Positions 47,851 to 64,000 of a stretch of 64,000 nucleotides of DNA are shown piece after piece; position 1 is the first letter of the stretch, and every line of letters begins with the position of its first letter. The notes under the pieces are model-generated. The model was given only the letters and a program-made list of their open reading frames with translations. It did no database searches and had not been told where the DNA came from. Both the position numbers and the translations under genes were made by a program. The stretch comes from Anastatus disparis. Taxonomy: Eukaryota; Arthropoda; Insecta; Hymenoptera; Eupelmidae. The stretch is from the NCBI GenBank assembly GCA_017163975.1, contig JAFFSR010000301.1:1841001-1905000 (forward strand), written 5' to 3'.

Positions 47851-48822
47851 TATAAGTAGTACTCGAAAATTGAATCACCGAACCTAATTCATAATTATCA
47901 ATCATGTAATTTGTTAAATAAATAATAATTATATAAAGGTTATTTATAAGTGAATTTTCTAATAGTAATGTATGTCATAAATGTATTACTTCATTCTATC
48001 ATTGAATTAGAAATAATAAAATTTAAATTCATATCATTAAAATTTAAATGATTTAAAAATTAAATAATATAGAATATTAAATTCATTTAAACAATTCTCT
48101 TATTTTATTAGGAATATTTAAATTTAATACAACGTCATTGCTCAAAATTTTTGATTCTGAAGTGCAAATATAAAGGACATTTTCGCAGCTACCTGGTGTT
48201 TCATTCATTATAATGTTAATTACTTTTCAGCATTAATTTTTTAAATCGTTACATAATTAATTTAATCTTTTAAAGATAAATGTAGATATATTGGTTTCTA
48301 CTGCGACTTCTGTGGAAAAACTAATAATCAAACTAGTCAAAGTAGTATATGCTTATCCTATATGATTTAACTGTGGTTGTAATTATAACAATAAAAATAT
48401 CAAAACAAATGCAAGCAAACTGTACATTTTTTTCTTGCGCAGTCTTCTATTCTCCGGAATAAATGTTAATTACAAAAAAATTTTGATTTCTTTTAATTTC
48501 ATGATTTCTGTTCATTTTATTTGATATTTCTTATCATTTTAATGATTTTTACTCTAGTTGATTTTAAAATTGATTAATTTGATTTTGTAATATTACAGTG
48601 ATTTCACTGAATTTCATGTGATTTAGAATCGATTACAGAGCAAGGTGGTCACTGATTTCAAAGAGTGAATAGCCCCTCGGCGTACACGCGTATTCCAAGC
48701 GTAGTGAAGCTTATATATGCTATATACAGCTTTGAGTCTTTGAAAACTGGAAAACTATAATGTCGATGTACAAGTTCCCACGGTGATATGAAATATTAAA
48801 AAATCCTATATTAGTAGGTAAA
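47851..48822. other. Gene-free spacer before the Polinton
   Basis: AT-rich. GTAGTGAAGCTTATATATGCTA near 48700 and CCCTCGGCGTACACGCGTATTC near 48675 stand out but are not recognised. Confidence 0.5.
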
Positions 48823-48824
48823 CA

Positions 48825-48875
48825 AGGGGGATTCTAGCCCAGGGGGGATTCTAGCCCAAGGGGGATTCTGGCCCA
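48825..48875. repeat. Three tandem AGGGGGATTCTAGCCCA units, putative left terminus
   Basis: Units at 48825, 48841 and 48859 (17-18 bp each). They are followed by CTACATTTGTAGCCCACTAC, which contains the palindrome CTACATTTGTAG. Consistent with a Polinton TIR tip, but without a matching right TIR this remains inference. Confidence 0.45.
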
Positions 48876-48995
48876 CTACATTTGTAGCCCACTACTTGTC
48901 ACGACAGGTTAGAATTTTAATAACTCAAGTTTGTGGCAACTTTAATAACCCAAGTTTATAATTTTTAAACAGTTTATTACGTTTAAATTTTTTGT

Positions 48996-49011
48996 GGCTC
49001 TGAAAAGAGCC
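48996..49011 (-). terminator. Histone-mRNA-type 3' stem-loop after the 48-aa gene
   Basis: On the minus strand GGCTCTTTTCAGAGCC: a perfect 6-bp stem, TTTC loop, preceded by AAAAT and followed by ACA. This is the canonical metazoan replication-dependent histone 3'-end signal. It sits three bases after the stop codon of the 48-aa ORF (49015). Such RNAs are cleaved after the loop, not polyadenylated, and are expressed in S phase. A matching element follows the outermost gene at the other end (62087-62102). Confidence 0.75.
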
Positions 49012-49014
49012 ATT

Positions 49015-49161
49015 TTAAAGTTCTTTATATTTAATATTTGGGGGTGGTATTTGTGATTTATATTTTTCGTAATGCTCCTTCCATGACATCTCTTTTTTAG
49101 AAGAATCAATAAGAGGAGTATACTCGTTTCGTTTATCGGTGGTGCTTGGACTTTGTCCCAT
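49015..49161 (-). CDS. 48-aa putative N-myristoylated Polinton protein
   Basis: Starts MGQSPSTTDKR, which fits the N-myristoylation consensus (MG...S/T), and ends PPPNIKYKEL. The frame is open further upstream to 49218, but the MGQ start is preferred because it yields the lipidation signal and lies about 45 nt after TATAAAAG (49202-49209). The middle is hydrophilic, with no membrane segment. A histone-type stem-loop follows the stop at once. Small myristoylated proteins in viruses often link capsids or replication to membranes; this role is inference. I do not recognise the family. Confidence 0.5.
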   Translation of the reverse strand: MGQSPSTTDKRNEYTPLIDSSKKEMSWKEHYEKYKSQIPPPNIKYKEL

Positions 49162-49230
49162 GATGAAATAATATAAGTCATGACATGCTTCTACTTTTAT
49201 AGTGATGAGAGCTCTCATCTATGTAATCAT

Positions 49231-49731
49231 TTACTTACACTCCATAGGTATTTCCAATGACAAACGACTCTCAGTAAAATATTTTTTCATGAGTCTGACG
49301 TTATATAGAGCACAACAAGCTTTATACATTCCATCGTGATGGGGGCAAACAGTCACTAGCTTTATCTTATCCAGCGGTGGATAACCCATCTCTGTAACAT
49401 CGGTAACGTTGAACTTGAAGCGCTCTAACCATCTTTCCTTTATACTTCCCATCACTAAAATTTTTCTAGCATCTTGTAGAGCTTCTTTAAGAATGTTTTC
49501 TATTTCGGCGTAGGGAATCGTACCAGAACGCCAAGACAAACCATGATAATATTGTTTAAACCATTTGTTTTGCGTCTTATATTTCTCTGTGAGTCTTCGC
49601 CAAGCAAACAGTTTTTTAAAAAGTAGTACGTCCGGATCAGAATCGTCGTTCAATGAAACTATAGCCAATTCTTTTAAGACATAGTCATTACCAGGCTGCT
49701 TGAAGCCTTGCATATCGACCAAGTACTCCAT
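49231..49731 (-). CDS. Conserved Polinton-associated protein (166 aa), left copy
   Basis: The intact frame starts MEYLVDMQGFKQP, followed by KELAIVSL, WFKQYYHGLSWRSG and a C-terminal Cys/His-rich part (VCPHHDGMYKACCALYNVR). The same arrangement occurs in the plus-strand gene near the right end (61183), so the two form an inverted pair. Proteins of this wording are common in insect Polintons and related sequences (recalled). The acidic D.QGF, KE, HG..W and late C/H residues might form a nuclease-like active site, but I cannot show it. The promoter is TATA at 49762-49769 and TCATTC at 49735-49740, with the initiator 4-9 nt from the ATG. Confidence 0.7.
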   Translation of the reverse strand: MEYLVDMQGFKQPGNDYVLKELAIVSLNDDSDPDVLLFKKLFAWRRLTEKYKTQNKWFKQYYHGLSWRSGTIPYAEIENILKEALQDARKILVMGSIKERWLERFKFNVTDVTEMGYPPLDKIKLVTVCPHHDGMYKACCALYNVRLMKKYFTESRLSLEIPMECK

Positions 49732-49734
49732 TGT

Positions 49735-49769
49735 GAATGACTCTTTTGACGATAAACATCCAATTTATA
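49735..49769 (-). promoter_or_regulatory. TATA/initiator promoter of the 166-aa gene
   Basis: Minus strand: TATAAATT, 21 nt, TCATTCACA, ATG. Same layout as at 61138-61173, 62363-62398, 51898-51932 and 51128-51161. Confidence 0.6.
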
Positions 49770-49785
49770 ACTATTCCCCCACCAC

Positions 49786-51011
49786 TTAGACAAGTTTTCG
49801 TACATTACCATTGACAGGATTGTACTCGACTACGCGATCGTGTATGATCAAACAGTAAGCTGATGTTCCAGCAAGAATATTATTTCTTGATTCAAATTCC
49901 AAGCGAACATCCACAGGAGCGCTTTTCAGAGACTCGTTTTGTTTCGAGCAATCGATTACAATCAACGGCACATGGTCAATGAAATCTTGCTTTTTTAAGC
50001 GCGGTTCTGCATCTTTCTCATAGTACGCAGGTTGAAAATTAGCATACATATCGTATAACATAGCAATTGATTACGTTCAATATTTAAATTTAGATTTTCA
50101 TATGGATAGTATAGCGAATTAAGGAAAAGCTTTACATTACTTATGTTGCAGTGATCAAAGCGACTCGCATTGGCTGTTTTTAAATTTTTTCGATTCGTTT
50201 GAAAAGCTAGAATAACAAAACGTGGCTTTTCTAATTGGTTAGAAGTTTTAACAGTCCAAACGTGTTTTGATGTGGTTGGAAGGAGTGGATACTTGTACAA
50301 GTCCCAACTGTGGAAACTCATTGCAATCGGTTTATCTTTTTCAATATGATTGAGTAAGCGAAGCTTGTAGGCATTCGATAATATTACATAGGGCATAAGC
50401 CATTCTATTCTTTGCAAATTGATCTGAAAATCTTCGTATCTATTTTCATGATGTGTTTGAACTACCGCATTCAAATCATTCCTAAATCTTGTCAGTATAA
50501 GTTCATGTTTTACATTAACTACAATTTTACGATAGTCTTCAGCGAAACCGAAAATCATACTCAGAGGAATAGATAGGTCAAAGTAACCTGCCTCGTCGTT
50601 TACTTTTAGATTCTCCTCTACATCAACCCAACCAGCGTTCTCAAGAATTGACTCTTGACTAGAACAAAAGGAAAGCCATCCTTTCATAAGTGTAGTTAAA
50701 CCAACATTTTTACATTTGTCAATCTCCACAGCATTGATTCCATATCGAATTTCTTCAAACATGTGACAGATGGCGTTATTGACTAGGACCGTATTAGCTA
50801 CCGCAGTTCCGTCAGCTTTCACGATTCTACCACAAATATGGAGTGAACTACGGGATGGTAGAAGACATAAGTCTTGATGTTGAATAGATATACGAATCTC
50901 ATCACTATTATTGAATGAAGATGCGGAATAAGGTTGATGAGCATGTACCTCATAATGTTCAACGGATTCATCAAACTTTACTCCCGACTGTATGCTCAAA
51001 ATTCCTTTCAT
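49786..51011 (-). pseudogene. Polinton major capsid protein (double jelly-roll), one frameshift
   Basis: ATG at 51011. Residues 1-310 are open (SIQSGVKFDESVEHYEV..., SSLHICGRIVKADG, NAICHMFEEIRYGIN, LMPYVILSNAYKLRLLNHIE, FHSWDLYKYPLLP). The correct frame then passes into a second open piece from about 50061 (YDMYANFQPAYYEKDAEPRL ... EYNPVNGN) and stops at 49786, so one base has been lost near 50062-50068. The total of about 408 residues is near the usual length. In the family this protein forms the hexon-like capsid shell. It lies downstream of the minor capsid and 51-aa genes and has its own TATA box inside the latter. Confidence 0.85.
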
Positions 51012-51041
51012 ATTTTTGAAAACAACAGAAGAATATACAAG

Positions 51042-51197
51042 TTACTTTCCACCACGGATTCTTAGTCCGAGACTTTTTAGGAACTGAATGTTTTGCCGTG
51101 TTAGCGCTTTCTTTGTCGTTTGACGACTGATGACTGGTCGACATGTTGACTTACTTATATAGCCTCTGCCAGCTTTAGTGTTGTAAACGATACCCAT
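51042..51197 (-). CDS. 51-aa basic protein between the two capsid genes
   Basis: Starts MGIVYNTKAGRGYISKSTCR and ends LKSLGLRIRGGK. It is strongly basic. Its ATG overlaps the ancestral stop of the minor capsid frame in TAATG, and 30 nt separate its stop from the MCP start. Short basic proteins at this place are seen in insect Polintons (recalled); a DNA-condensing or capsid-cement role is plausible but unproven. The codons around GYISKS contain the TATA box of the MCP promoter. Confidence 0.65.
   Translation of the reverse strand: MGIVYNTKAGRGYISKSTCRPVISRQTTKKALTRQNIQFLKSLGLRIRGGK
51128..51161 (-). promoter_or_regulatory. Internal promoter for the major capsid gene
   Basis: Minus strand TATATAAG (51154-51161), 20 nt, TCATCAGTC. 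It lies within the 51-aa ORF and 117 nt before the MCP ATG. Layout as in the other Polinton promoters. If used, the 51-aa protein would be made only from the longer minor-capsid transcript. Confidence 0.5.
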
Positions 51198-51883
51198 TAC
51201 GTTTGTTTAAATTGTAATCTTATTGTAAAAATTTCTCCTCGAAAATTAATCAAGTGTCCGTCTTGATCGACTATCCGTTCTTAAATGTGATCTATGCTCT
51301 TAACGCTGATCGGAAGATAAATGACTGGAGATGGAACTTCGATGATCTTATATCCCGGTGGGACTGCAGGAAAGAACTCGTGTATGGTATGCACTCGTCG
51401 ATTGTTTATATAGGCGCCAGAGGTTATGTTGCACTCAACTCGGAGTGCGTTAACTTTTAAAATAGCTACTGGTAAATCAGAATCGTGAGAGATTTTTTCT
51501 GTAAGAACACGTTGAGTAAAACCCAACAATGAACCTATGGAATCTTGTGGTTGAAAATCAATAGGATGACTGCAGGTTATAACACAACGTAGTCTGCTGT
51601 TATTGGGTCTTATATCGATTGAAATTCCTTTTGATGCTAGTGCCTCACAAAGATAATTTTTTATATCTTTAATTTCGTGACTTCCAGTCGGTAATAAAAT
51701 TTCTTCCTCACCAACGTAAAACTTATTATTTCCACTGTCGATGTTAGGTATTGAGTTGAAGGTCGAAAGACCAATTAATCCAAGAACATAGTTCTTATCG
51801 GGTAAAAGTTCGATCGGAGGAAAATACTGAGCTTCGAGCACTGATGATGTACTAGAAAAACTTAGCGTCAATGAATCTTCCAT
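51197..51883 (-). pseudogene. Polinton minor capsid (penton-like) protein with a late nonsense codon
   Basis: ATG at 51883: MEDSLTLSFSSTSSVLEAQY, then PDKNYVLGLIGLSTFNSIPN, LPTGSHEIKDIKNYL, IGSLLGFTQRVL, VNALRVECNITSGAY, HTIHEFFPAVPPGYKIIEVP and YLPISVKSIDHI. TAA at 51281-51283 breaks the frame. The next 27 codons are still open and conserved in style (DQDGHLINFRGE) up to the TAA at 51197-51199, which overlaps the next start. The single-jelly-roll penton-like role is family knowledge. The loss of the last 27 residues makes function doubtful. Confidence 0.8.
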
Positions 51884-51897
51884 GATTGTTCAATGGA

Positions 51898-51932
51898 TAA
51901 TGAGAGATAGCTAATTTGACTTTCCTTTTATA
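51898..51932 (-). promoter_or_regulatory. Promoter of the minor capsid gene, overlapping the protease 3' end
   Basis: Minus strand TATAAAAG (51925-51932), 21 nt, TCATTATCC, with the ATG 15 nt further on. The TATA box also encodes part of the last codons of the protease (KKLIKGK), so the two genes share these bases. Confidence 0.6.
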
Positions 51933-53080
51933 AGTTTTTTACTCAAAAACTTCAAACATAAATGACCACAATTAAATGTATCATAGTCTTGATTCCTCTC
52001 ATAGTTATATTTAACCTCATCTACTCCCAAGTATAGCATTAAATCCAATGGTGGTTAAAGGTCTCCGAAAGAATCGAAATAAACAACGTTTTGGCCTCAT
52101 TTTCTATAAGCTACCCAATGTGTACCTGGACCATCTACATTATCGAGATTAACGATCGCTGTTTCGTGATAATGAGATCCACTCTTTGGTAAAGCATTTC
52201 GCATGAAAACTCCTCGAAAATTTGGAATTTTTAGTATTTTAGCATACTTTATGAGATCATAATCTGTCAAAGCTCTTTGCGGTAACCTTACTTTGAGGAT
52301 CTTTTTTTTTAAACCAGACTTTATATGAAGACCAAGTCCTGTCTTGTAAGGTTTCAAATAAAGACCTTTACCCAAAGCTATTTCTTCCATCTTTTTATTG
52401 TGTCTTTGTTTTTCTTCTAATTGTTTTTGAGCAGCTTTTTAATCATTAACTGCTTTAGTTATACCAGCCGCACCACCTGCTAAACTACCAATTGCACCTA
52501 GACCTGCAAAGACAGGTATAAGAAACCGTAAGAATCCTCCTACTTTAGTTGTAATTGATAGTTTGCGGGGTACTCTGACTTTATGTTTACCACCTGCTTT
52601 TCTCACAGCACTTCGAGCACCCTTCAAAGCAGGGAAGATAGCTTTACGAGCACACTTACTAGGTTTCATAGATTTGGAAGCGGCCCTAATTATTTTATTA
52701 AGAGTAACAGAGGGAGTCTTTTTCTTTTTTGCTCCCATTCCAAGTTTAGATTTTACTTCCATAGCGTTTGCAATAGCGAATGTAGCTGCTTTGTCACCAA
52801 TACTAGCGTCTTTCGATGAAACTCTTTCCCAAGCTTTTTCTCCTAAAACCTTATCAGCGGTATTTCTAACCTCAATATTTTCACGATTCTGTGAATAAGC
52901 TAAATCGTGCTCCTAGTAGGATTTGTCGAGTGGATTGATTCCTGAATCACCTCTTGCTAAACGCTTGGCTAATTTTGTCCCTGGTCCAGAATATTGATAT
53001 CCCGGTAGATGAAGTTCCAGTGGAAGATTATTAATGATTTTATTAAGCAAACCACGACTGCGTCGTCGATATATGATCAT
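51911..53080 (-). pseudogene. PLA2 / pVI-like / adenain-like protease fusion, four in-frame stops
   Basis: A single frame of 390 codons from ATG 53080 to TAG 51911. Residues about 15-70 are a phospholipase A2-like part (LELHLPGYQYSGPGTKL, then EHDLAYSQN; the usual Y-C-GPGT Cys is Ser). Residues about 105-240 form a basic, then glycine-rich hydrophobic pVI/pX-like part (KLGMGAKKKKTPS, FLIPVFAGLGAIGSLAGG). Residues about 230-390 are a cysteine protease of adenain/Ulp1 type with His in GTHWVAY, Asp in VYFDSFGD and Cys in FNCGHLCLKFL. Stops at 52913-52915, 52439-52441, 52097-52099 and 52055-52057, all in frame with no shift, show decay by point mutation only. In viruses the protease matures the capsid and a PLA2 breaches membranes. 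Confidence 0.85.
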
Positions 53081-53172
53081 AACACTTTAAAGTTCAAAGG
53101 ATAACTAACCCATTGGGCATATAAGCAGCGTATTTATAGTTAATCGAACAGTCGCAGTTTGTGTCTGTCGAG

Positions 53173-53877
53173 ATGAATTCCAAAGAGCACTCTGTAAAAC
53201 TTCTGATGGCAAATTTCGGTGCCATTTCGGAGCAAGAAAATAAATCAAAGAAACATGGAAATTTACTTCCAGATAGTATAAGAGGTGTATTTTGCGGACC
53301 ATCTAATTATGGTAAAACTAATAGCCTACTCGCACTCATAACACATCCTAATGGTCTAAGATTTGAGAATGTCTACGTCTATTCGAAATCTCTTAATCAA
53401 GCAAAATATAAGTTTTTGAAAGAGCTCTTTGAGCCACTGGAAGGTATGCAATACTTTCCAATTAGCGAACACGAATCAGTAATATCTCCGGATAACGCTT
53501 TTCCAAATTCTATAATGATTTTCGACGATGTAGCTTGTGAAAAACAAGAACACATCAGGGCATACTTCTGTATGGGTAGACACAAGAACTTTGATTGTTT
53601 CTACCTCTGCCAGTCTTATGCTCGAATCCCAAAACATCTCATAAGAGATAATGTTAATCTCTTAGTTATCTTTCGTCAAGATGATGTCAATCTGAGACAT
53701 TTATACGACGATCATGTTAACTCTGACATGACTTTTTTATGTTTCAAAGAATTGTGTTCTAAATGTTGGATAGATGATAAATATGGATTCCTAATGATTG
53801 ACAAAGATAGTCCACTAAATGCTGGTAGATATCGAAAGGGTTTAGATTGTTTTGCTATAAATATAACTCATACTTAG
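53173..53877 (+). CDS. Packaging ATPase (FtsK/HerA, A32-like), intact
   Basis: ATG at 53173 (the frame is open slightly further upstream from a GTG). Walker A GVFCGPSNYGKTNSLLALI at residues about 37-55, Walker B SIMIFDDVA near 115-123, then FYLCQSYARIPKHLIRDN (sensor-type Q) and IFRQDD. About 234 aa, the normal size for Polinton ATPases. It pumps DNA into the capsid, in the cytoplasm or nucleus. It is divergent from the PLA2/protease gene (93 nt between start codons). A TATA-like ATATAAGC at 53119 with ACAGTCG 27 nt later could be its promoter. The next gene starts 42 nt after its stop. Confidence 0.88.
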   Translation: MNSKEHSVKLLMANFGAISEQENKSKKHGNLLPDSIRGVFCGPSNYGKTNSLLALITHPNGLRFENVYVYSKSLNQAKYKFLKELFEPLEGMQYFPISEHESVISPDNAFPNSIMIFDDVACEKQEHIRAYFCMGRHKNFDCFYLCQSYARIPKHLIRDNVNLLVIFRQDDVNLRHLYDDHVNSDMTFLCFKELCSKCWIDDKYGFLMIDKDSPLNAGRYRKGLDCFAINITHT

Positions 53878-53918
53878 CAGAGATTCATCAATCTATCTTT
53901 GAAACTCAAAGAGATAAC

Positions 53919-54764
53919 ATGGCAGACCTTAAACAAAAGAAAGTCCTACTCCAGCAACTTATTCAAGCGCGTAATGCTGTGAAACGCAAGTATGACATGT
54001 TAAAATATGAAAAAGAAATTACGGAAAGAGTTGTTCAACTAACTCTTAAACCCATCATTGAGCCACTTGAAGAGATTGCTTTTGAAAGCAAGAGAAAAAG
54101 AAGAAGACTCATTCCTGAAAAAGAAGAAATTATTCTACCTGAAGTTAAAAAATCTGAATCCGATGAAGAATTGGAGCATACTATACAAAATGATTCCTCG
54201 CATTCTCTTGAGACCTCGTTTGAATCTGCTAGCGAAGATTTTACAGAAGATTTGCAATATAGAGAATTGGATAAAGTTTATGGTGTACGTAGGGAGGATG
54301 ATAAACTTTTTCTCGGTAATACACCAATACATATTGAAAAAACTTATGTGCAATTAGGAACTGAAAAGTTCCCAAAAACTCGAGGATTGTACGAATTGCT
54401 TGTTGAGAAGCATCCATCTCAAAAATTAGTAACTCAAAAAGATTTAGATAACTATCAAAAGATCCTGGTACTGACAAATGCTTATAAAAAACGTTTCAGA
54501 AACGATGAAGGAATTCGTTTGCATACTAGTAAAAAGTTCGCCAGCATTATTGCTCCTCTATTCGGTAAAAAAGGAGGTTCGCTATCTAGATATAAAATTG
54601 CAAGAAAATATACCAAGTTTGATTTTGTCTACTGGGGTGATCCAAACGAGTTAGTTGATCGACCGCGTTCATTGGTTGCTGAAAAAGCAGCTGGTAATCC
54701 TAGTCATACTAACGAGATTCATTCCATCATCGAAGAGTTACGAGAAGCTAGCTATATATATTGA
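53919..54764 (+). CDS. Conserved Polinton protein (281 aa, DUF8207-like), intact
   Basis: Start chosen at MADLKQKKVLLQQL (53919), 42 nt after the ATPase stop; the frame is open upstream across the ATPase end but with no better start. The N-terminal 60 residues are helical and charged (coiled coil likely). A basic cluster (SKRKRRRL, a possible nuclear signal) and an acidic Ser-rich linker follow. The conserved C-terminal half includes VYGVRREDDKLFLGN, RGLYELLVEKHP, SRYKIARKYTKFDFVYWGDP, NELVDRPRSLVAEKAAGNPS and IIEELREA. I recall this C-terminal pattern from many arthropod Polintons, often named DUF8207. The function is unknown; a minor virion or replication role is possible. Confidence 0.78.
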   Translation: MADLKQKKVLLQQLIQARNAVKRKYDMLKYEKEITERVVQLTLKPIIEPLEEIAFESKRKRRRLIPEKEEIILPEVKKSESDEELEHTIQNDSSHSLETSFESASEDFTEDLQYRELDKVYGVRREDDKLFLGNTPIHIEKTYVQLGTEKFPKTRGLYELLVEKHPSQKLVTQKDLDNYQKILVLTNAYKKRFRNDEGIRLHTSKKFASIIAPLFGKKGGSLSRYKIARKYTKFDFVYWGDPNELVDRPRSLVAEKAAGNPSHTNEIHSIIEELREASYIY

Positions 54765-54795
54765 GCTGCAAGTTAAAACTCGTTACACTATCAAA

Positions 54796-55071
54796 ATGAG
54801 CGTCGATGTATTCGGAAGTAATCTTAACCGAAGCGAGGGTAATCGAGGACCTCCCGGAATTGGCTATAAATTGACAAAAGATGGACATTTCGATGTAGAA
54901 AATAAGAGGTTATGCAATGTTGCCACTTTTCAGCAATCGAATGATGCCGTTAATTTTAATACACTGCAAGGTTTGATTACATCTGAAGTCCAGAGTATAT
55001 ACATAGTCACTGCTAGATTAAGAGATGATCTTAGCACATCAGAATTAGAACTGCAAAAGTTAATAGGATGA
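54796..55071 (+). CDS. 91-aa conserved Polinton protein
   Basis: MSVDVFGSNLNRSEGNRGPP, then GIGYKLTKDGHFDVENKRLC, ATFQQSNDAVNFNTL and a C-terminal helix (ARLRDDLSTSELELQKLI). The GN.G..G...T.DG.yD..nK.l.nv..P....DA...... layout resembles short fibre-like or coat-associated proteins of Polintons and some phage tail fibres (pattern only). 31 nt after the preceding gene. The DAVN...LQ part could form a trimeric coiled coil. Confidence 0.6.
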   Translation: MSVDVFGSNLNRSEGNRGPPGIGYKLTKDGHFDVENKRLCNVATFQQSNDAVNFNTLQGLITSEVQSIYIVTARLRDDLSTSELELQKLIG

Positions 55072-55214
55072 GTATGATGAGAAGATAAAAAAAATTAATA
55101 TAAACATTGAAAATCTATACGAGTTAATTAAAAATTGGATGCAAAATGTTAAAATTAAATCAAATAGTATAAGAGCCAATTTTCTGTAATTAAGCAATCA
55201 TTAACTCCGTGACC

Positions 55215-56075
55215 ATGGAACACCAAAGAGTTGTAGAAGAGCTTCATAAACCTGCCAGACGTCGCTATCCCCGTCGAACATTTGATGTGCGAGGTTTAGA
55301 TGAAACTTGGCAAGCTGATCTTGTAGAGATGCAACCTTATTCTCGAGATAACAAAGGCTACAAATACATGCTTACAGTTATAGACATATTTTCCAAATAC
55401 GCATGGGCCGTTCCTGTGAAACAAAAAACCGGAGCAGAAGTCTCTGCTGCGATGAAATCTATATTACGTCAAGGACAAGTTCCAAAAAATTTACAAACAG
55501 ATAAAGGCAAAGAGTTTTATAATACTAATTTTAAAAATCTTATGCAACAATACAAGATTAACTTATACTCAACGTATAGTAATCTCAAAGCATCTATTTG
55601 CGAACGCTTCAATCGTACTCTCAAACACAAAATGTGGATGAAGTTCAGCTTACGTGGTAGCTATAAATGGATCGATATTTTACCTGATCTGATAAAATCT
55701 TACAACAATACAAAACATCGAACGATTGGTGCTAAACCAGAAGATGTTACAGTTGCAAATGCATTTCAGTTTCGCGCACGATTTGGTCAAAAAGTTGTGA
55801 GAAAAAGAACAAAATTCAAGGTTGGTGATAAAGTACGAGTAAGCAAATTGAAACAAGTATTCGAAAAAGGATACATACCTAATTGGTCTGCTGAAATATT
55901 CACGATTGAACAAGTTAAAGCAACGCAGCCGACAACGTACCGTCTCAAAGACTATCAAGATCAATCAATCGCTGGTGGCTTCTATGAAGAAGAACTTCAG
56001 AAAGTCAAGTATCCAGACGTTTATCTTGTAGAAAAAGTTCTAAAGAGACGTGGGAATCAAGTATACGTAAAGTGA
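55215..56075 (+). CDS. Polinton integrase (rve, DDE), intact
   Basis: ATG 55215 (a GTG lies two codons upstream). The RNase H-like core has D in ETWQADLVEMQPYS, D in VPKNLQTDKGKEFYN and E in ASICERFNRTLKHKMW, with about 33 residues between the last two, as in retroviral-type integrases. The C-terminal part (KFKVGDKVRVSKLKQVFEKG, WSAEIFTI, YRLKDYQ) is an SH3/chromo-like domain. It joins element ends to host DNA. The protein is 286 aa, and no N-terminal HHCC zinc finger is present, so the N-terminus may be short or start elsewhere. A 137-nt gap separates it from the 91-aa gene. Confidence 0.9.
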   Translation: MEHQRVVEELHKPARRRYPRRTFDVRGLDETWQADLVEMQPYSRDNKGYKYMLTVIDIFSKYAWAVPVKQKTGAEVSAAMKSILRQGQVPKNLQTDKGKEFYNTNFKNLMQQYKINLYSTYSNLKASICERFNRTLKHKMWMKFSLRGSYKWIDILPDLIKSYNNTKHRTIGAKPEDVTVANAFQFRARFGQKVVRKRTKFKVGDKVRVSKLKQVFEKGYIPNWSAEIFTIEQVKATQPTTYRLKDYQDQSIAGGFYEEELQKVKYPDVYLVEKVLKRRGNQVYVK

Positions 56076-56135
56076 CTCAGCTTTGATAGTACTCATAATA
56101 GTTGGATCGACAAAACATCAGTCCAATAAGTACTC

Positions 56136-56534
56136 ATGTATCATACGGAGCAAAGTCGTCTTGACAGTTTTAAAAACTGGCCTTTGACTTTTTGAAAACC
56201 CAAAGATCTGGCCACTGCAGGATTTTATTATACAGGTGAAATTGACGAAGTCCGTTGTTTTGAATGCTCTACAGAGATCTGTAGGTGGGAAATTGGTGAG
56301 GATCCATTATCAGAACATAAGAAATGGAATAGTCGCTGCCGTTTCCTTCAAAATATAATTCCTACAGATAATTCTTTACAAAATAAATGTAAAGTTTGCT
56401 TTGATAAAGGAATAGAGATAGCATTTTTACCATGCGGACATTGTTGCTGTTGTTACCAATGCGCAAGTAAAGTTAAATTATACGTAATCTGTAGAAGAAA
56501 CATTAACTTCAGAGCAAGGGTATTTATATCTTAA
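56136..56534 (+). pseudogene. IAP-like BIR plus RING gene with one nonsense codon
   Basis: Read from ATG 56136. The BIR domain covers residues about 7-70 (SRLDSFKNWPL, then ATAGFYYTGEIDEVRCFEC, EDPLSEHKKW, SRCRFL); its zinc ligands fit CX2CX16HX6C exactly. The C-terminal RING at residues about 86-132 reads CKVCFDKGIEIAFLPCGH...CYQC and ends CRRNINFRARVFIS. The seventh RING ligand is Tyr instead of Cys (KLYVIC for K.CPIC). A TGA follows NWPLTF (56193-56195). IAPs block caspases and ubiquitinate partners. Viruses and their relatives often take up such genes to delay cell death. Plus strand, 60 nt after the integrase, so it probably belongs to the element. Confidence 0.82.
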
Positions 56535-56553
56535 GCGCTTTAAACAAAAACAT

Positions 56554-56682
56554 TTTTTGTTTAAGAAGTGATGGGAGCCCCAACCTTCGCGCCCATCTGT
56601 GAGGTACAACCAAGAATCGCCACTTGTGAACTCCTTACTCCGAAAAGTAAGAAGTACACCCGTGACTCGTATACCTCTCCGT
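56554..56682. repeat. 3'-flank repeat, copy 1
   Basis: About 130 bp between the IAP gene and the first SSB-like gene. It is nearly identical to 57112-57249 (GTGATGGGAGCCCCAACCTT, GTACAACCAAGAATCGCCAC, CCCGTGACTCGTATACCTCT). In the sense of the flanking minus-strand genes it is the 3' untranslated part. GGGAGC/GCTCCC-type pairing (perfect in copy 2, one mismatch here) could form a terminal hairpin. Confidence 0.75.
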
Positions 56683-56696
56683 TAACTTCCAAGCGC

Positions 56697-57008
56697 TTAA
56701 GCCAAGGAGAACTCGAGATCTTTTCCTTTATCATCATCTAAATACTTCACAAACAACTTAAAATTTTTAATGGCCGCTTGCAACTTGAAGTGAAACTCCT
56801 TATTCTCCTGTAAGGCTCTGCATGCGCGAGATGGAATAAAAATGCGCCATTCATGATCTAAAGTTGCCATCAATCTAAACTCATTCTTACATTTAACTGG
56901 TCTAAACTCACTCACATAATAAGTCTGATCTTTCTTCAAGGGGAATATATTCTCAATGGCACGATGGACGCGTCCACGAGCTGCCTCGTTGAATTTATCA
57001 AGATCCAT
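56697..57008 (-). CDS. Small conserved protein, paralogue 1 (possible SSB)
   Basis: Start MDLDKFNEAARG at 57008 (an in-frame ATG nine codons upstream is less like the paralogue). About 103 aa: YYVSEFRPVKCKNEFRLMAT, WRIFIPSRACRALQEN, NFKLFVKYLDDDK and the end DLEFSLA. It shares order and end with the next gene at about 40% by eye. Proteins of this kind (lN..a...f......L.kg..Y.i..l......yG.....L.....i.LP.R....L) occur in many insect Polintons and invertebrate viruses and look like an OB-fold ssDNA-binding protein; that role is inference. Confidence 0.65.
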   Translation of the reverse strand: MDLDKFNEAARGRVHRAIENIFPLKKDQTYYVSEFRPVKCKNEFRLMATLDHEWRIFIPSRACRALQENKEFHFKLQAAIKNFKLFVKYLDDDKGKDLEFSLA

Positions 57009-57111
57009 ATTTCTCTGATCAAGGCTTTTTCTCAACAGAGACTAATGAAGAAATGGCTCAGGAGTTCTGTTAAATAGCATTTGCGTAGATCTCCCCCTCC
57101 ACAGAGAAAAC

Positions 57112-57249
57112 TTTTTGTTTAGGAAGTGATGGGAGCCCCAACCTTCGCTCCCATCTGTGAGGTACAACCAAGAATCGCCACTTGTGAACCCCTTACTCTG
57201 AGTAAACTCAAAGTAGGAGGTGCACCCGTGACTCGTATACCTCTCCGTT
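57112..57249. repeat. 3'-flank repeat, copy 2
   Basis: See 56554-56682. It lies 3' of paralogue 2 and contains GGGAGC...GCTCCC pairing on the minus strand. The two flank copies are more alike (about 90% by eye) than the genes they follow. Confidence 0.75.
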
Positions 57250-57262
57250 CATTTTCATGCGC

Positions 57263-57568
57263 CTAAGCAAAGGAGAACTCAAGATCACTCTTGGTCTCGC
57301 CCAAATACTTTACAAACAACTTGTAGTGTTGAATGGCATCCAATAACTTATAATGGAAGTTCTCATCCTTCTCTAAGGCAAAGGAAACTCGAGTTGGCAG
57401 AAAAATGCAGAATTTACTATCTAAATCCGCAACAAAACGGTCACCATACCGTGTTTTAACTGATTTTAGTTCAGTCTCCATGTAATCTTGGTTTTTCTCT
57501 AACTCAGCTACCTTTTTAGTGGGTAAAAAACCTCCACGAGCAATCTCATTCAATTGAGCAAGATCCAT
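57263..57568 (-). CDS. Small conserved protein, paralogue 2 (possible SSB)
   Basis: 101 aa from ATG 57568: MDLAQLNEIARGGFLPTKKV, LEKNQDYMETELKSVKTRYG, FCIFLPTRVSFALEKD, HYKLLDAIQHYKLFVKYLG and the end DLEFSFA. It is open and complete, and closer to the family pattern than paralogue 1 (TRYGDRFVADLD). Both lie just downstream of PolB on the same strand, consistent with a replication role (inference). Confidence 0.68.
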   Translation of the reverse strand: MDLAQLNEIARGGFLPTKKVAELEKNQDYMETELKSVKTRYGDRFVADLDSKFCIFLPTRVSFALEKDENFHYKLLDAIQHYKLFVKYLGETKSDLEFSFA

Positions 57569-58969
57569 CTAAAATGAATAAATATTCTAAGTCCTTTAGA
57601 GTATGAAATTTTTTTAAGTATAAAAATTTTAACTTACCTTAAATTTTTTTTTCTTGATAAAATTTGAAAGTCCTTTTTAAATATTCAAATTTTTACTGAG
57701 TTCTCTGCCTCTTGCTTGGTGGCTCTTCAGATGTAGGAATGACTTCTTCGGGCTCGTTGTCTTCTATAAGTAGTGGTCCCCCTTCTACTTGAGCCACGAT
57801 CCCCTCTTATTTGTATATTCCCTCGTATTTGGTAATAACCCCGCGGCAAGGTATCTGTGCTCCCCTCCAGCAGATAACGCTTGTCGTCATTGGAGCTCAG
57901 CACCACCTTTTTCTCCTTCTCAGTCCGAACGACATGTTGTCTTGATCGAATGTTGCACTGTTGACAAGCTATAGTTTCTTGTTTAAACAGGCAACGACGA
58001 TAGTCGTCAAACTGGATGATGTTCTTTACAACCAACCTCTTTGGCCTTCTTGATAGGGTTTTCATTCTGGATCTTGACGCAATACATTTTGCTCTTTAAG
58101 CTAATGAACTCTGTCATTATTTTACCGTCGCACTCGTCTTTCATTACACCGATGACTTTTTTATTGACGCGAGGCATAGCAAACTGATTGTCTTCGGCAT
58201 AATCAGACGTATCAAACCTCATGATGTCTTCTTTCATCATTTCGTATACGTTCTGACCTTTCTGTCAATGTCTGTGAGGAGTTCAAGCTGTACTCATGTA
58301 TGCTTGAGCATAGCATCCCAGGTGAGACCAGGTGTGGTATAATAATGAGCAGGATCTAGACCGTAGGCTTCGATGCAAGTCGAGCGAAAATTCTCGAATA
58401 CATCTGCTAAGAGGAGAACGTCGGTCTTAAGATAAAGATCCGAGTACTCACCTAGCGTCTGGATGTTAAATGTATTCCAAACATTCTGCGCATGCTCGTA
58501 CTCACTATCACTAATTTCACGATCCATCAGCTGACTGTAGAAAGCCTCTTTGAATGGGAGATACGCATCTTTTAGCTTGTCGAATTCACTAACGTAATCG
58601 TAGGGAAAAACTCCTTTCCGCTTTAGTAATTCCATTTGCTCGCTTGTTTATCCATCAGTTTGGGATTCCTTTGTAGCGATATTTAACTCACTCAAGTAAG
58701 ATGCAAGCTTCTCGAGAGAGCAGGCCATAAAGCGGAACGAATCGATGAACCTGAAGTTGATTTCGCTTCCCTCGATATACTTTATGAATGAGATGTAACG
58801 TTCTTTATTTTCTGGAATGAGACTCACCCGTCCTTTAAAATCGACAGCTGTTGCAATCTTCTTAACAATAAAGTGCGAGTCATATCCTGTTAGATTGTGA
58901 AATACGACGGGAATAAATCTTGAATCTTAATATTTAATATTACAAGATTGATGTGCTGCTCCGCGAAAT

Positions 58970-59034
58970 CTGAAAAAAAATAAAGTTGAATTTAAAGAAT
59001 TATAAGTTTACATAAGAATAAAGATAAAACTTAC
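58970..59034 (-). other. Spliceosomal intron A in PolB (65 bp)
   Basis: Donor GTAAGTTTT and acceptor TTTTTTTTCAG on the minus strand. Splicing joins HCHLTG to FRGAAH through a split Arg codon (AG/A, phase 2) and restores the family sequence HCHLTGRFRGAAH. Confidence 0.75.
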
Positions 59035-59765
59035 CTTCCAGTGAGATGGCAGTGTTCACGAACCTTGACGTCTTTATCTGTGAAAGACTTTCTACAGATA
59101 TGACAAAAAGTAGCTCTTTCGAATAAAAGATGCTCTCTATCTGTGAGGTTTAGAAGCTTGGGATTTCTATATAATTGTTCCAATTTACTTCTGAGTTGAT
59201 CTAATTCTCCCACAAACCACTGAGCAGGAGTTAAGTCGTTTTCTTCCATTTGTCTATAGCTTCTATATTCGGAATATGTATCGTTGAAGCTACACTTGAT
59301 ATAGTATCCGATACTGTATGCCTGATGTTCTTGAAAAGCACGCACATCATTATCTGCTGGCTTTAGGAGACACTCGAAATCGGCGTATATGACGAATGGT
59401 ATTCTTTCACAATTCTTATGATTTTCAAATTTTAAAATATTGTCTTTTTCAGAAGGAAGTTTAACTTTACACTTGTTAACTTTAACACAATCAACTTCGT
59501 GTTCTTTTAAGTTCGCTTCTGTTCTAAGGAAATGAAGACAACGTTCACAAATATAGGTCTTTGCTCTATAATTTGTTAATTGTGAACGCACCAATCTTGA
59601 TAAATTTTTTATCTAAACGTAGTGATATTTAATTACTACGTCAACATCATCATCATCGATTTCGTCTTCTTCTTCTTCCTCGTCAAAATATTTATTTTGT
59701 ATTAGAAGAAGATTGACGTGCTTTGCCTTCTTATTCATCGTAAGGTGAAACATCAAATTTTTCTC

Positions 59766-59827
59766 CTGCGAAAATTTATTATTATAAATATCTTTACAAA
59801 GTTGAAGAAAAAAATTTATTTACTTAC
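59766..59827 (-). other. Spliceosomal intron B in PolB (62 bp)
   Basis: Donor GTAAGTAAAT, acceptor TTTTCGCAG. The join KKSG|EKFD keeps the frame through a split Gly codon (G/GA, phase 1). Confidence 0.7.
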
Positions 59828-60814
59828 CACTCTTTTTCAGGATGAAAAGATTGATGGATACATCGTTTTGACGCTCAAATTTTGGAATTTGTTTTGGTGT
59901 CACAGGGAAGTCAATTCCAGTGAAGTCAAGTTCTTGTTCATACTGTCTATATTTAGATACGCGTTGTGCATGACGCTCAGCGGGATGTAATCTAGAGAGA
60001 ATTGCCCATTTAAAACATTGATCATCGGTATTTTGTACGTTAATACATGCTTTCTTCTTTTCAATCACTTCTGGTAAATCAATGTGAGAACCACCTCGCA
60101 TCGGATTAAGTTTATTTATATTCACACTTAAACTTAATATCTGGCGAAGAGACCAACCAGAATCACGTTCTTGAAATTCTGCCATCGCAGTCTAAATATA
60201 TTCCATAGCATTCAATTGGAACCACTTCATTATGTCGTTAGTATTAAAAATAGAGGTATTCTTTGTATTAAAGTATTTAACCTCAATTATTTCTGTCTCA
60301 CTCTTCCGTAGAACATATTCGGCTGCGAGTTCGAGGTTAACAGAGATGGTGTTGTGTAGAGCGAGAGCATCTTTCACTTTTTTCTCGAAAATAGGAAGAG
60401 CATCTTTCATGAATGTTTCTAGTCCTAAATGTCCTAGATTGGTAATCACACCCGACAACATTCAAGAAGCGAAGGCTGATTGAAAATCTTTCCATTCTAC
60501 ACTTGGCGTTTGAATATCAGCCTGAAGCTGACCACCTTTCTTAACAAACTCTAATAGTCTTTTGTGAATGGTTATAAGATGTCTCAGTGACGTTTCATTT
60601 TTTTGTTTTTCTGCTCGTGTCAACGATGATTCACTTAACACAACTTGTAAGTCTTTGACCACTTTATCTACCAACTCTAACCACCTTTGAATGTCTTCAC
60701 TATCAGCTGTACCACTTGCCGCGTAATGCAAAGATTTCCACAAATTCTTCACTGTATTTATGTAGTACTTTGACATGATGAACTCAGTTTTATAATTAAC
60801 TAACAATTCACTTT

Positions 60815-60945
60815 ATATATCCACTTTATTGTTCGCTGTGAAATCTTCAAAGTCCACTTTAAATATTTCCAAGTCCACTTTCACTTAAATTTTTCTAAGT
60901 CCACTTTTACTTTTAATTTTACTAAGTCCACTTTTAATTTTCACT
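60815..60945. repeat. AAGTCCACTTT repeats upstream of PolB
   Basis: Five spaced copies of AAGTCCACTTT (at about 60821, 60848, 60870, 60894 and 60922) separated by 20-26 bp of AT-rich DNA, just upstream of the PolB TATA box (TATATAAAG, about 60811-60819 on the minus strand). Related CACTTTTCACA words recur at 63330-63410. They could be binding sites of a regulator or origin protein (inference). Confidence 0.5.
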
Positions 60946-61137
60946 TGTAGATTTTAATGTTACTTGATGATGTTTGATGGATAATGATCCTCTGCGAGTC
61001 TGCAGCTGCTCATATGCACTCTTAGTTGAGCGTGGGAGGTGGCGGAGTGGGAGTAGTGGGGTAGAAGAAATCAGAGTTACGTAGTGGGGGGAGGGGGTAA
61101 AGTGTCGTGATTGGTTCATCAGAGATATTAGTGCTAA

Positions 61138-61173
61138 TATAAAAGCGTGAACGATATTATAAAAGTATCATTC
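61138..61173 (+). promoter_or_regulatory. TATA/initiator promoter of the right-copy gene
   Basis: TATAAAAG (61138-61145), 22 nt, TCATTC (61168-61173), ATG at 61183. A second TATAAAAG at 61158 is too close to the start to be the working one. The preceding 61000-61110 is unusually G-rich (GTAGTGGGGGGAGGGGGT). Confidence 0.6.
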
Positions 61174-61182
61174 ATTACCGAG

Positions 61183-61705
61183 ATGGAGATCGTACTGGAC
61201 GTCCAAGGCTTCAAAAGGTCTTTGGATAAATTTGTATTCAAAGAAGTTGCTATAATTACTCTCGAAGATGATTTGGTACCGATGGTCTTCAATTTCCAAT
61301 CGCCATATCTTTGGAAATATCTTTTAAGCGAATACAAAAGTGTTAACAAATGGTTGGAAAAATATTGGCACGGTATACCTTGGAATTCTGGAGACATTCC
61401 TTACAAAAGACTTACAGATATTTTAAAAGAATGTTGTAAAGATGCGACGAAAATTTGGGTGAAAGGAGAAGAGGAGAGAAAATGGGTAGCCGAAATATTA
61501 CAAGTAAGTAAATTATTTAAAACTAAAAATATTTTTTACTAATAAATTGTTTTTTCAGATTAATCTGTAATATTGAGCATAGTGGCTGTCCATCTTTCTC
61601 AACACTAGCAGAGAATGATGAAACTCTGACATGCGCCATCCATTAGTGTTCAAACCCCGCTTGTGCATTTAAGAATGTTCAAATGCTTAAATAATCGCTT
61701 CTCGG
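61183..61705 (+). pseudogene. Right-end paralogue of the 166-aa protein, with an intron
   Basis: ATG 61183: MEIVLDVQGFKRSLDKFVFK, then YWHGIPWNSGDIPYKRL, WVKGEEERKWVAEILQ. Then GTAAGT (61504) to TTTTTTCAG (61558) forms a 55-bp intron in phase 0. The second exon in that frame stops after three codons. One base over, it reads CNIEHSGCPSFSTL, CAIH, stop, CSNPACAFKNVQMLK, which is the Cys/His-rich tail of the family. So a one-base change plus a nonsense codon have broken it. It has the inverse orientation to its sister at 49231-49731, which has no intron at this point. AATAAA near 61820 could end the transcript. Confidence 0.7.
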
Positions 61706-62080
61706 GAGTGGAAAAGGTGTTGATGAAGTAGATGGCAACTGTAGTTTCACCTCGTTCAATTCTTTGATGGTATCAGAAAAAGAAGAAGAATGTCCATGTA
61801 ATAAAAATTATTGTATGATAAATAAAGATTTATTACATTCTATGTATACTTGAAAAAAAAAAATAATTCTTAAATGGAGAGATCATAAGTTTATGATAAA
61901 TTTATTGATACAATAACTTATCGTAAACGGGTAGGATCTCACAGGTAACGAGCGAAGGAGGGGCTCTTACCACATTAAAAAAAAAATTTTTTAATTCAAT
62001 AAATTATTTTAAAAATTATTACTTTAAAAGTAAGTTCAAAGAGAACACACTTCTAAAATAGTTTACTCCACGTTCAAATA
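61706..62080. other. Intergenic region
   Basis: No gene seen. It holds the likely 3' end of the preceding gene (AATAAAGATTTATTACATT near 61820) and a G-rich word (AACGAGCGAAGGAGGGGCTC near 61948). Confidence 0.5.
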
Positions 62081-62086
62081 ATTGAT

Positions 62087-62102
62087 GGCCCTGAAAAGGG
62101 CC
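62087..62102 (-). terminator. Histone-mRNA-type 3' stem-loop, right end
   Basis: On the minus strand GGCCCTTTTCAGGGCC: a perfect 6-bp stem with TTTC loop, fitting the consensus GGYYYTTTTCARRRCC. It lies 18 nt after the stop of the minus-strand proline-rich ORF. Compared with the left copy (GGCTCTTTTCAGAGCC) one base pair differs (C-G for T-A), a compensated change. Confidence 0.75.
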
Positions 62103-62119
62103 GATTGTATAAAAATTTT

Positions 62120-62356
62120 TTATATTTGTAAAATTATATTTGTAAAATATAATGGCTCCATTGCTAAAGCCATTAACTCCTCACCTAAGGCCTCAGCGAT
62201 TGATGGAAGTGGTGATTGTGGTTGTAAAAGAGGTCTTGGCCACGAAAATTTCCTAAGCGAAGATGGCGAAGGTACTGTCAGTGGTGGCGTTGGTGGTAGA
62301 CCTTTCCACAGCACTGGTAAGGATGGAGCTGGTAGAACCGGAAGATGCCGTTCCAT
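62120..62356 (-). CDS. 78-aa proline-rich ORF with promoter and histone-type 3' end
   Basis: MERHLPVLPAPSLPVLWKGL, a Pro/Ser/Leu-rich middle (PPTPPLTVPSPSS) and the end LALAMEPLYFTNIILQI. Product not recognised. The evidence that it is expressed is positional: TATAAATA (62391-62398), 22 nt, TCATTC (62363-62368), ATG 7 nt further, and a histone-type stem-loop after the stop. The opposite strand is also open (62082-62489, Gly-rich), but it has neither promoter nor 3' signal, so I favour the minus strand. Confidence 0.45.
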   Translation of the reverse strand: MERHLPVLPAPSLPVLWKGLPPTPPLTVPSPSSLRKFSWPRPLLQPQSPLPSIAEALGEELMALAMEPLYFTNIILQI

Positions 62357-62362
62357 TGTGAA

Positions 62363-62398
62363 GAATGAGATAACTCGTTGCGTAACGGGTTATTTATA
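62363..62398 (-). promoter_or_regulatory. TATA/initiator promoter of the proline-rich ORF
   Basis: Minus strand TATAAATA, 22 nt, TCATTCTTCACAATG, closely matching the left-end promoter TATAAATT, 21 nt, TCATTCACAATG (49735-49769). Confidence 0.6.
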
Positions 62399-62449
62399 TC
62401 CTAAATTCCCACTTAATCGCTTTGGTGGGGATGTACACTTCAATAACTC

Positions 62450-62482
62450 GCTCTTTGAAAATTTAAAACCTTTTCAAAGAGC
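62450..62482. repeat. 12-bp perfect hairpin
   Basis: GCTCTTTGAAAA and TTTTCAAAGAGC separated by 9 nt, about 50 bp upstream of the TATA box of the minus-strand ORF. Could be a protein-binding site. Confidence 0.6.
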
Positions 62483-62489
62483 AAAATGA

Positions 62490-63840
62490 ATGCGCACTAA
62501 TCACTTCATTTCAAATTAATTTAAATAATATTTTAATGCAGAACATTCTCAAATATTCTGAACTTATATTTTTTTTTCACAGATTTTTCAGATTTTTTAG
62601 TTTTTTTCTTAATTTGACAGCTAAACAACTTTCACTTATAAATCAAATTAAATTTTATAAGTATTAATTTATAAAAATCAAATAATTCAAACTTTAGATT
62701 TATACGAACAAACTTCACTTTTTTTTATATTAACTTTTTTATCATCGGATGAAGAAATAATAATTTTATGGACTCGAAACTTTATTTCCTCTTTTCTATC
62801 AACAGAACAAAGCTACACACCAATTTTTAAGTGTCTAGCTCTTTTAGTTGCTGAGATATGAAAATTAGGTAAAAAAGACCAAGTGCCCATAATTGGGTAA
62901 AATTGAAAAAATATAAATTATGAGTTATTTGCCAAGCATGACTTACTTAATTGAGATATAAATTATTAAAAAAAATATAATTAAATTGAGCATTATTAAT
63001 AAAAATAAAGCTCAAAAAATCTTTTTGAATTAGAAGTTGAAAAAGAAAAACTTAATTTAATGCACTTTTCAAAAAATCACTTTTTACAATTCACATTTTA
63101 AAAAACACTTTTATTAAATTATTTTAAGCCCATCAATTTATATTATTTATTAATATCTACAATAAACAATTTTTAAATATCTTTTAATTTCATAAACATA
63201 AAAGGTTATCTAAATTTAATAAATAATTTATAATAGTACACTTTCACAAACACTTTCATTAAATTTATTAAATTTTATTTTAAATTATTATTTTATTTTA
63301 AAAGTTAGTTAAATATAACAAGTAGCACTTTTAATAATTCACTTTTCACATCACTTTTTTCACAAATACTTTTCACATGGACTTTTTTCACAACACTTTT
63401 CACATGCACTTTTACATAAATTTATTTTAAAATTATTAACTAATTTTATAGCTTAAATATTTCCTTCAATATTGTAAAGAGTTATTAACATTTAACTCAT
63501 GTTTCTGAACCTGGAAAAGATTTTAATAAATACATTAAAATAATTTAATTCCACGTCATTTTCCAATTAAGGATCAGATTTCGACTAACTTTACCAATCG
63601 AAAATAGCTAAAAAAGAATTTCGACAAATGTACACGCTTCCGTTTCTCATATGTTAAAATGAATAGATATTTACAAGTGAAAGCAATTCTGATATGTATT
63701 TTTATTAAAAATAAATCAAATTACTTTTTTAGCTACTTTCGATCAGTAAAAAATGTCTAAAACCTCGTCTAAAACTGACCTGTAACATGTCAAATAGTAT
63801 AATACTAAAATATGTGTATTACCTTACTTTTAACGTTTAG
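62490..63840. other. AT-rich region with CACTTTT words
   Basis: No gene. Words CACTTTTCACA, CACTTTTTTCACA and CACTTTTACA cluster at 63330-63415 and are sparser at 63060-63260. CTTTTTTAGCTACTTTCGATC near 63725 matches 21270. It could still be Polinton interior or terminal DNA. Confidence 0.4.
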
Positions 63841-64000
63841 ACTTACATTGCATACAAATATAATTCTTATTATGAAAACTATGTGAATGGTCTGTATGAA
63901 TATGATTATATATCATGGTTTGAAATTATATTCGAGCAAGATTTTAAAAGTTTTTCAGATTATGGTAGATTCACGACTGAATTGGGAAAACAAGCAATAA
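63841..64000 (+). CDS. Possible exon running off the window edge
   Basis: One frame stays open for 53 codons to the last base (TYIAYKYNSYY..., SWFEIIFEQDFKSFSD). It is preceded by AACGTTTAG, which could be a splice acceptor. Aromatic- and Asp/Glu-rich, not recognised. In such AT-rich DNA 160 nt of open frame is weak evidence. Confidence 0.2.

Follow-up and report, generated by a model that had tools for sequence, protein, structure and literature searches.

Histone-type 3′ stem-loops after small accessory genes of a Polinton family in Anastatus disparis: candidate signals for host SLBP/U7-type 3′-end processing

INTRODUCTION

The closest described system to the one reported here is the 3′ end of replication-dependent histone mRNAs, which is formed by cleavage and carries a short stem-loop in place of a poly(A) tail: the stem-loop-binding protein (SLBP) holds the loop, the U7 small nuclear ribonucleoprotein (snRNP) pairs with an element downstream of it, and expression is tied to S phase. 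To our knowledge, metazoan poly(A)-minus stem-loop mRNAs have been thought nearly private to histones. On the side of the Hymenoptera, a passage of a fig wasp study gives 26 annotated 'histone downstream elements' (PMC9160881).

Here we describe stem-loops of this type in a Polinton, a virus-like mobile element, found in a 64,000-nucleotide (nt) stretch of the Anastatus disparis genome (assembly GCA_017163975.1, contig JAFFSR010000301.1, positions 1,841,001 to 1,905,000), hereafter the window. Several small accessory genes of the element carry the signal after their stop codons together with the downstream motif of the host's own histone genes, the arrangement recurs across copies, and the host genome contains an SLBP RNA-binding domain. 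The best explanation, to which we give a probability of about 0.72, is that these genes end in the host replication-dependent histone 3′-end signal and would be processed by SLBP/U7-type cleavage. The initial annotation of this DNA knew of no description of the kind for Polintons, and we likewise found no earlier report of histone-type 3′ ends in Polintons or adintoviruses among the listed titles and abstract starts of the literature on Polintons, SLBP, viruses and Hymenoptera.

RESULTS

Two sites only in the window match the pattern GGYYCTTTTCAGRRCC at up to two mismatches, both of them exactly (stem-loops 1 and 2, Table 1). The chance level is a mean of 0.17, with two or more sites in 1 of 100 shuffles, and a strict paired rule likewise gives two sites in the window versus none in 60 Markov shuffles. 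Stem-loop 1 is matched by the Rfam model Histone3 (RF00032) at 36.4 bits (48971-49016), above the gathering score of 34. These results bear out the initial annotation as to both 16-mers, their positions and strand, and the single compensated pair by which they differ; its spacing of 3 nt from the stop is right for stem-loop 1, but stem-loop 2 lies 17 and not 18 nt past the stop. A 134-amino-acid (aa) open reading frame (ORF; 62085-62489, plus strand), antisense to the 78-aa gene, begins at stem-loop 2, probably by chance.

Table 1. Features of the Polinton copy and its surroundings in the window
Feature	Position	Strand	Remark
Left terminal inverted repeat	48812-48960	.	79-91% inverted matches in L033, L037, L041, L042, L043, L045, L050
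Putative histone downstream element AACGTAATAAACTGTTT	48967-48983	-	overlapped by AATAAA at 48973-48978
Histone-type stem-loop 1 (GGCTCTTTTCAGAGCC)	48996-49011	-	3 nt 3′ of MGQ stop
MGQ gene, 48 aa	49015-49161	-	end of a 67-aa ORF
Major capsid protein (double jelly roll)	49995-51011	-	Pfam PF21738, E 4.2e-80
Penton-like protein (presumed name)	51281-51883	-	no Pfam match
Packaging ATPase (A32-like)	53173-53877	+	Pfam PF04665, E 5.1e-5
Retrovirus-type (rve) integrase	55215-56075	+	Pfam PF00665, E 3.4e-13
DNA polymerase B region, separate ORFs (presumed name)	58294-60185	-	conserved in other copies
Putative histone downstream element AACGTGGAGTAAACT	62060-62074	-	host-type motif
Histone-type stem-loop 2 (GGCCCTTTTCAGGGCC)	62087-62102	-	17 nt 3′ of 78-aa ORF stop
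Proline-rich gene, 78 aa here	62120-62356	-	shortened form of 126-aa gene
Sequence past similarity to fuller right ends	63519-64000	.	matches of L006, L017, L020, L024-L027 stop at 63518

The exact pattern GGYYCTTTTCAGRRCCA, which misses the UUUA form of the loop, occurs at 1,319 sites in the 939-Mb host genome, while the reversed pattern, used as a control, has none. Site-level details come from the first 100 of these sites. At their variable pair 3-14 we counted C-G 57, T-A 37, T-G 1 and C-A 5 times, and at pair 4-13 C-G 86, T-A 4, T-G 1 and C-A 9 times, so that the two positions are paired (G-U included) in 95 and 91 of 100 sites, respectively, with no pairing enforced by the pattern; since many of the 100 are related copies, this is a measure of consistency and not of 100 independent events. 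These sites replace a covariation count on 25 chosen loops, which was set aside because those had been picked by the pairing rule itself.

A genome search with Histone3 gave at least 71 matches at E ≤ 0.001 (75 candidates scored of 191,936); in 14 control genomes there was a match in one and none above the cut-off. The best 30 matches were cut out as L001-L030. In nine of them (L002-L005, L013-L015, L019, L029) the ORFs, judged by eye, are those of histone genes, and 20 of the 21 others were refetched with 10 kb of sequence (L027 was left out). Proteins of the window Polinton were matched (tblastn, E ≤ 1e-4) in 17 of these 20 loci, L038 being among them only by a 23-residue match to the MGQ gene; L034, L040 and L047 have no such match, and the acidic gene described below is present in L034 and L047. 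Rfam rescoring of 12 loci returned seven matches over the gathering score.

The downstream element also takes the form used by the host. The motif AAYGT is found 8-33 nt past the loop in 13 of 19 host histone tails (shuffled mean 1.0, maximum 5) and in 41 of 53 Polinton-locus tails (shuffled mean 3.3, maximum 9); the latter come from the window and 19 of the 20 10-kb loci (L040 out; L034 and L047 kept) and are related rather than independent, and loops with another exact loop within 50 nt downstream were skipped. Both window loops have such an element, AACGTAATAAACT on the left and AACGTGGAGTAAACT on the right, starting at the 13th base past the loop. The initial annotation saw no clear element of the AAAGAG type; the putative element present here takes the host's form instead. 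Among the six histone tails lacking AAYGT, five follow H3 ORFs and the sixth is L015. In the five H3 tails (L002, L003, L004, L019, L029) that position is taken by ACAAGGAA-like or related letters, which sets them apart from the listed H1, H2A, H2B and H4 tails; one further H3 tail (L013) has AACGT. Poly(A) signals 3′ of the core genes did not decide how the 3′ ends of those genes are made.

As for the host machinery, the SLBP RNA-binding domain is found at one locus in two exon-like pieces of 56.4 and 42.9 bits (cut-off 27), with a stop counted in the second. L051, the best match to the U7 small nuclear RNA (snRNA) model RF00066, was rejected as U7 at 25.7 bits (cut-off 34); at the search threshold this model also matched in 12 of 14 control genomes. 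A pattern joining the complement of AACGT to a following U7-type Sm site gave 19 matches versus 27 in the control, and among the 10 of the 19 that were fetched none has a convincing 3′ hairpin.

The right-hand loop belongs to a proline-rich gene of 126 aa when intact (127 aa in L043). The window copy is without most of its 3′ coding part and has kept the loop and the downstream element; L033 and L050 likewise retain the loop beside a broken frame. A loop lies 3′ of the 78/126-aa gene in eight of nine other copies, L037 being the one without, and 16-18 nt past the stop in the six copies whose 126-aa frame reaches the end. The initial annotation had proposed to look for the loop at equivalent places in related copies; in right ends that had been fetched for a different loop, seven of eight have it after this gene.

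The left-hand loop follows a gene that starts MGQSPST..., which we take to be an N-myristoylation-like beginning. The window protein is 94% identical to that of L049 and 82% to that of L048; the gene has 48 aa in the window and 49 in L049, with the loop 3 nt past the stop in both. Four copies picked only by a 97% capsid match (C15, C23, C247, C319) all have the left loop at the equivalent place: three have the UUUA form with an intact stem (35.8 bits each), and one has a stem mismatch and nothing over the cut-off. Judged from the copies sampled, the left loop is nevertheless subfamily-specific, as the exceptions given in the Discussion indicate.

MGQ-type genes are also found outside this family. 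Eight more GGYYCTTTTCAGRRCCA sites were fetched as 451-base pieces; of the six GGTCC-loop pieces, L056 is a right end of the window family, and in the five others (L052-L055, L057) the loop comes after an MGQ-type gene belonging to a further element. Of these five, only L054 and L055 have an uninterrupted MGQ frame, of 53 aa and with the loop 28-29 nt past the stop; the frame is broken or diverged in L052, L053 and L057. The window and L054 proteins are 40% identical over 43 columns (E 3e-6, a single comparison). For this further element (L052-L055, L057, L060), the 2 kb upstream of L054 gave no match to a window Polinton protein and nothing over the Pfam cut-off, and one ORF there matched nothing in PDB. 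A second, different MGQ-type ORF (MGQCAGKIAS..., L060:49-240, minus strand) lies just upstream of the L054 gene.

Further genes bear the loop in other copies. An acidic proline-rich gene right of the 126-aa gene encodes 168 aa in L043 and is followed there by four loops, the nearest 2 nt past the stop; other copies of the window family have two to four strict tandem loops after it, and diverged relatives (L032, L035, L036, L038, L047) have one to three, 15-78 nt past the stop. Seven aligned acidic proteins are 26-35% identical to the first and share only two invariant columns; part of the set has YDP, SPxK and a C-terminal RKL or RRL in common, and an RxL-type motif falls within the last 12 residues in five of seven (shuffles 3-10% each). 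Homologue searches with a single sequence or the seven-row alignment returned none (the queries are rich in proline and glutamate, and only candidates sharing most words were scored). An 85-aa gene (L035, L036) and its 60-aa relative (L046) have a loop 12 nt past the stop, and several copies have an additional loop near the right repeat that no convincing ORF accompanies. The pooled ratio of nonsynonymous to synonymous differences (pN/pS) is 0.15 for the MGQ gene (two copies, against L049), 0.22 for the acidic gene (three copies), 0.31 for the 126-aa gene (six other copies, one partial) and 0.39 for the 85-aa gene (three copies); at 0.15-0.39 across four gene sets, the loop-bearing accessory genes look real. 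The initial annotation had called both window genes the outermost of the element. This holds for the left one, whose loop borders the left terminal repeat on its inner side, but not for the right one, and we rejected the right loop as a mark of the outermost gene: fuller copies have at least one loop-bearing gene and a further loop rightward of it.

The window holds one Polinton copy, which starts with the left terminal repeat near 48812 and reaches at least 63518. Only the left end is present, the inverted repeat partners sitting in other copies, and neither the acidic multi-loop gene nor the right terminal repeat of other copies is in the window. The copy is damaged: its capsid frame is split near 50060, the C-terminal part being ORF 49786-50061, the 126-aa gene is cut to 78 aa, and similarity to other right ends stops at 63518. 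The penton-like protein has no Pfam match, and its name, like that of DNA polymerase B, is our assumption. Among the best 120 of 1,124 capsid relatives the top identity is 76%, with the wasps Megastigmus ('adintovirus') at 71% and Nasonia at 70-71%, relatives that by themselves point to a probably hymenopteran host. In IMG/VR no relatives were found by capsid, penton or a 25-row capsid alignment, and the pattern GGCYCTTTTCAGRGCCAC had 0 matches.

Capsid genes are numerous in the host: a first look gave 2,596 candidates, and all 119 that were scored reached E < 1e-169, many with a 418-aa open frame. The expansion is very large and perhaps partly young; many capsid copies carry internal stops. 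The contigs listed in full, those before the cut in C27, hold 7 of the 119 scored copies, for which we calculated distances manually. In two of the seven an exact loop lies about 11.3-11.5 kb from the capsid, as expected for the 126-aa gene (C2:1316544, C6:426617), and two have only a GGTCC loop at 12-14 kb (C15, C23, whose left loops are of the UUUA form).

Some other features of the region should be mentioned. Two related ORFs lie near opposite ends of the element (49231-49731, minus strand, and 61183-61542, plus strand; 42-49% aa identity via family copies); in each, a GTAAGT splice-donor-like site can be seen by eye close to where the similar part ends. A direct duplication at 56549-57286 (94% over 95 nt and 87% over 77 nt, spacing about 560) overlaps related ORFs of 103 and 101 aa. 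Beside the Polinton, at 45509-47087 (minus strand), ORFs resemble by eye parts of a non-LTR (long terminal repeat) retrotransposon.

DISCUSSION

It appears that an endogenous, adintovirus-like Polinton family has given some of its small accessory genes the 3′-end signal of host histone genes, made up of a stem-loop, a flank of the A(C)C type and the AACGT-type element that the host itself uses. Host RNA polymerase II would transcribe such a gene; with SLBP on the loop and the U7 snRNP base-paired to the AACGT-type element, the RNA would be cut between the two, just past the loop, by the histone cleavage complex. The product would be an mRNA that ends in the loop, has no poly(A) and is made and stable mainly in S phase. 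Beyond the signal and its host match, these steps follow established histone biology, and cleavage, lack of poly(A) and S-phase-tied expression are what we would expect of the loop-bearing Polinton transcripts. Of the initial proposal that the element borrows host histone 3′ processing, the core stands, as coding-strand loops recur shortly past stops with the host histone downstream motif; its wording needs narrowing, since of the two genes only the left one is outermost, and its loop is limited to a subfamily. More tentatively, the accessory genes, among them the one for the acidic, E1A-like protein whose RxL tail is of the cyclin-docking type, might form an S-phase regulon expressed only in histone-making cells because their mRNAs need SLBP; if so, the element would be timed to host DNA replication without a regulator gene of its own.

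Several observations weigh against histone-type processing. The Histone3 check came out divided: stem-loop 1 passes, but stem-loop 2 reaches 31.6 bits (62063-62107, E 9.1e-6 in 16 kb), under the gathering score, even though it keeps the 6-bp stem and 4-nt loop of the Histone3 type. The same applies to L074, L052-L055 and L057, and to the loops that L042 and L043 have 3′ of the 126-aa gene. An MGQ-type gene without a loop is found in both sampled copies of a subfamily that is 80% identical, and also in L046 and L038. Three of the seven capsid copies (C2:821226, C12, C17) have no exact loop within about 15 kb, a count that does not include the UUUA form. The left downstream element shares bases with an AATAAA in the window, L048, L049 and three of the four capsid-picked copies, so polyadenylation is possible there. 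Finally, U7 snRNA was found neither with RF00066 nor among the fetched matches to the Sm-site pattern.

Some of these points would also fit a relic, that is, a captured piece of a histone 3′ end which spread with the elements while present transcripts are polyadenylated downstream. The AATAAA on the left, the internal stops of capsid copies and the subfamily that manages without a loop after its MGQ-type gene are all in keeping with it. We nevertheless think it improbable, as both the loop and the downstream motif are found again behind genes of different classes and in diverged element groups, and the stem positions co-vary at sites not selected for pairing. Retention of the loop next to a broken 126-aa frame (window copy, L033, L050) speaks neither way. 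A generic hairpin, acting without SLBP as a terminator or polyadenylation mark in the manner of mimivirus hairpins, would also sit 3′ of a stop codon, as these do; its fixed letters, its UUUC or UUUA loop and its flanks fit Rfam Histone3, however, and the downstream motif is that of the host histone genes, which makes this account scarcely credible.

The high copy number and the two to four tandem loops after one gene could suggest SLBP decoys, that is, many transcribed loops that bind SLBP, lower host histone supply and favour naked element DNA. This seems very doubtful to us: a position directly past the stop together with a downstream element fits processing better than mere binding. It is rather unlikely, if less so, that one long leftward transcript of the virion genes (penton, capsid, PX, MGQ) ends at the left loop, which would then serve all of them and not MGQ alone. 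The annotated ORFs from 53080 to 49015 all run leftward, and that strand of the window has no AATAAA from the penton stop (51281) to 48978 and one ATTAAA at 49035, but AATAAA is present inside the corresponding stretch of L048 and L049. A long transcript of this kind would be compatible with histone-type processing at the left loop.

If host histone-type processing is confirmed, a large transposon or virus family would supply, beside the histones, another natural class of stem-loop mRNAs lacking poly(A), and a genomic parasite would have a direct route for sensing S phase. Its many natural variants could be used to read the rules of SLBP and of the downstream element. Poly(A)-selected RNA-seq would miss such transcripts, so that the activity of insect Polintons would be underestimated.

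Compared with known histone mRNA 3′ ends (RF00032; SLBP/U7), the Polinton loops have the same stem-loop letters, flanks and short distance from the stop, and the downstream motif of the same host. They differ in that they follow non-histone genes of a mobile virus-like element, at times two to four in tandem, and that cleavage is here predicted from sequence. The acidic gene recalls adenovirus E1A and the 'Oncoid' genes in being small, acidic and proline-rich with IDL/IDI stretches, and in the RxL-type C-terminus of five of its seven proteins, a likeness that is judged by eye and comes with no homologue found. Accessory 'Oncoid' genes of related animal viruses are treated in a passage on another virus group (PMC11071296), in the text of which 'stem-loop' occurs 0 times. 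With Polintons and adintoviruses (now Eupolintoviridae) the window element has in common the double-jelly-roll capsid, the integrase, the packaging ATPase and the terminal inverted repeats, and its capsid is 71% identical to that of the 'Megastigmus wasp adintovirus'.

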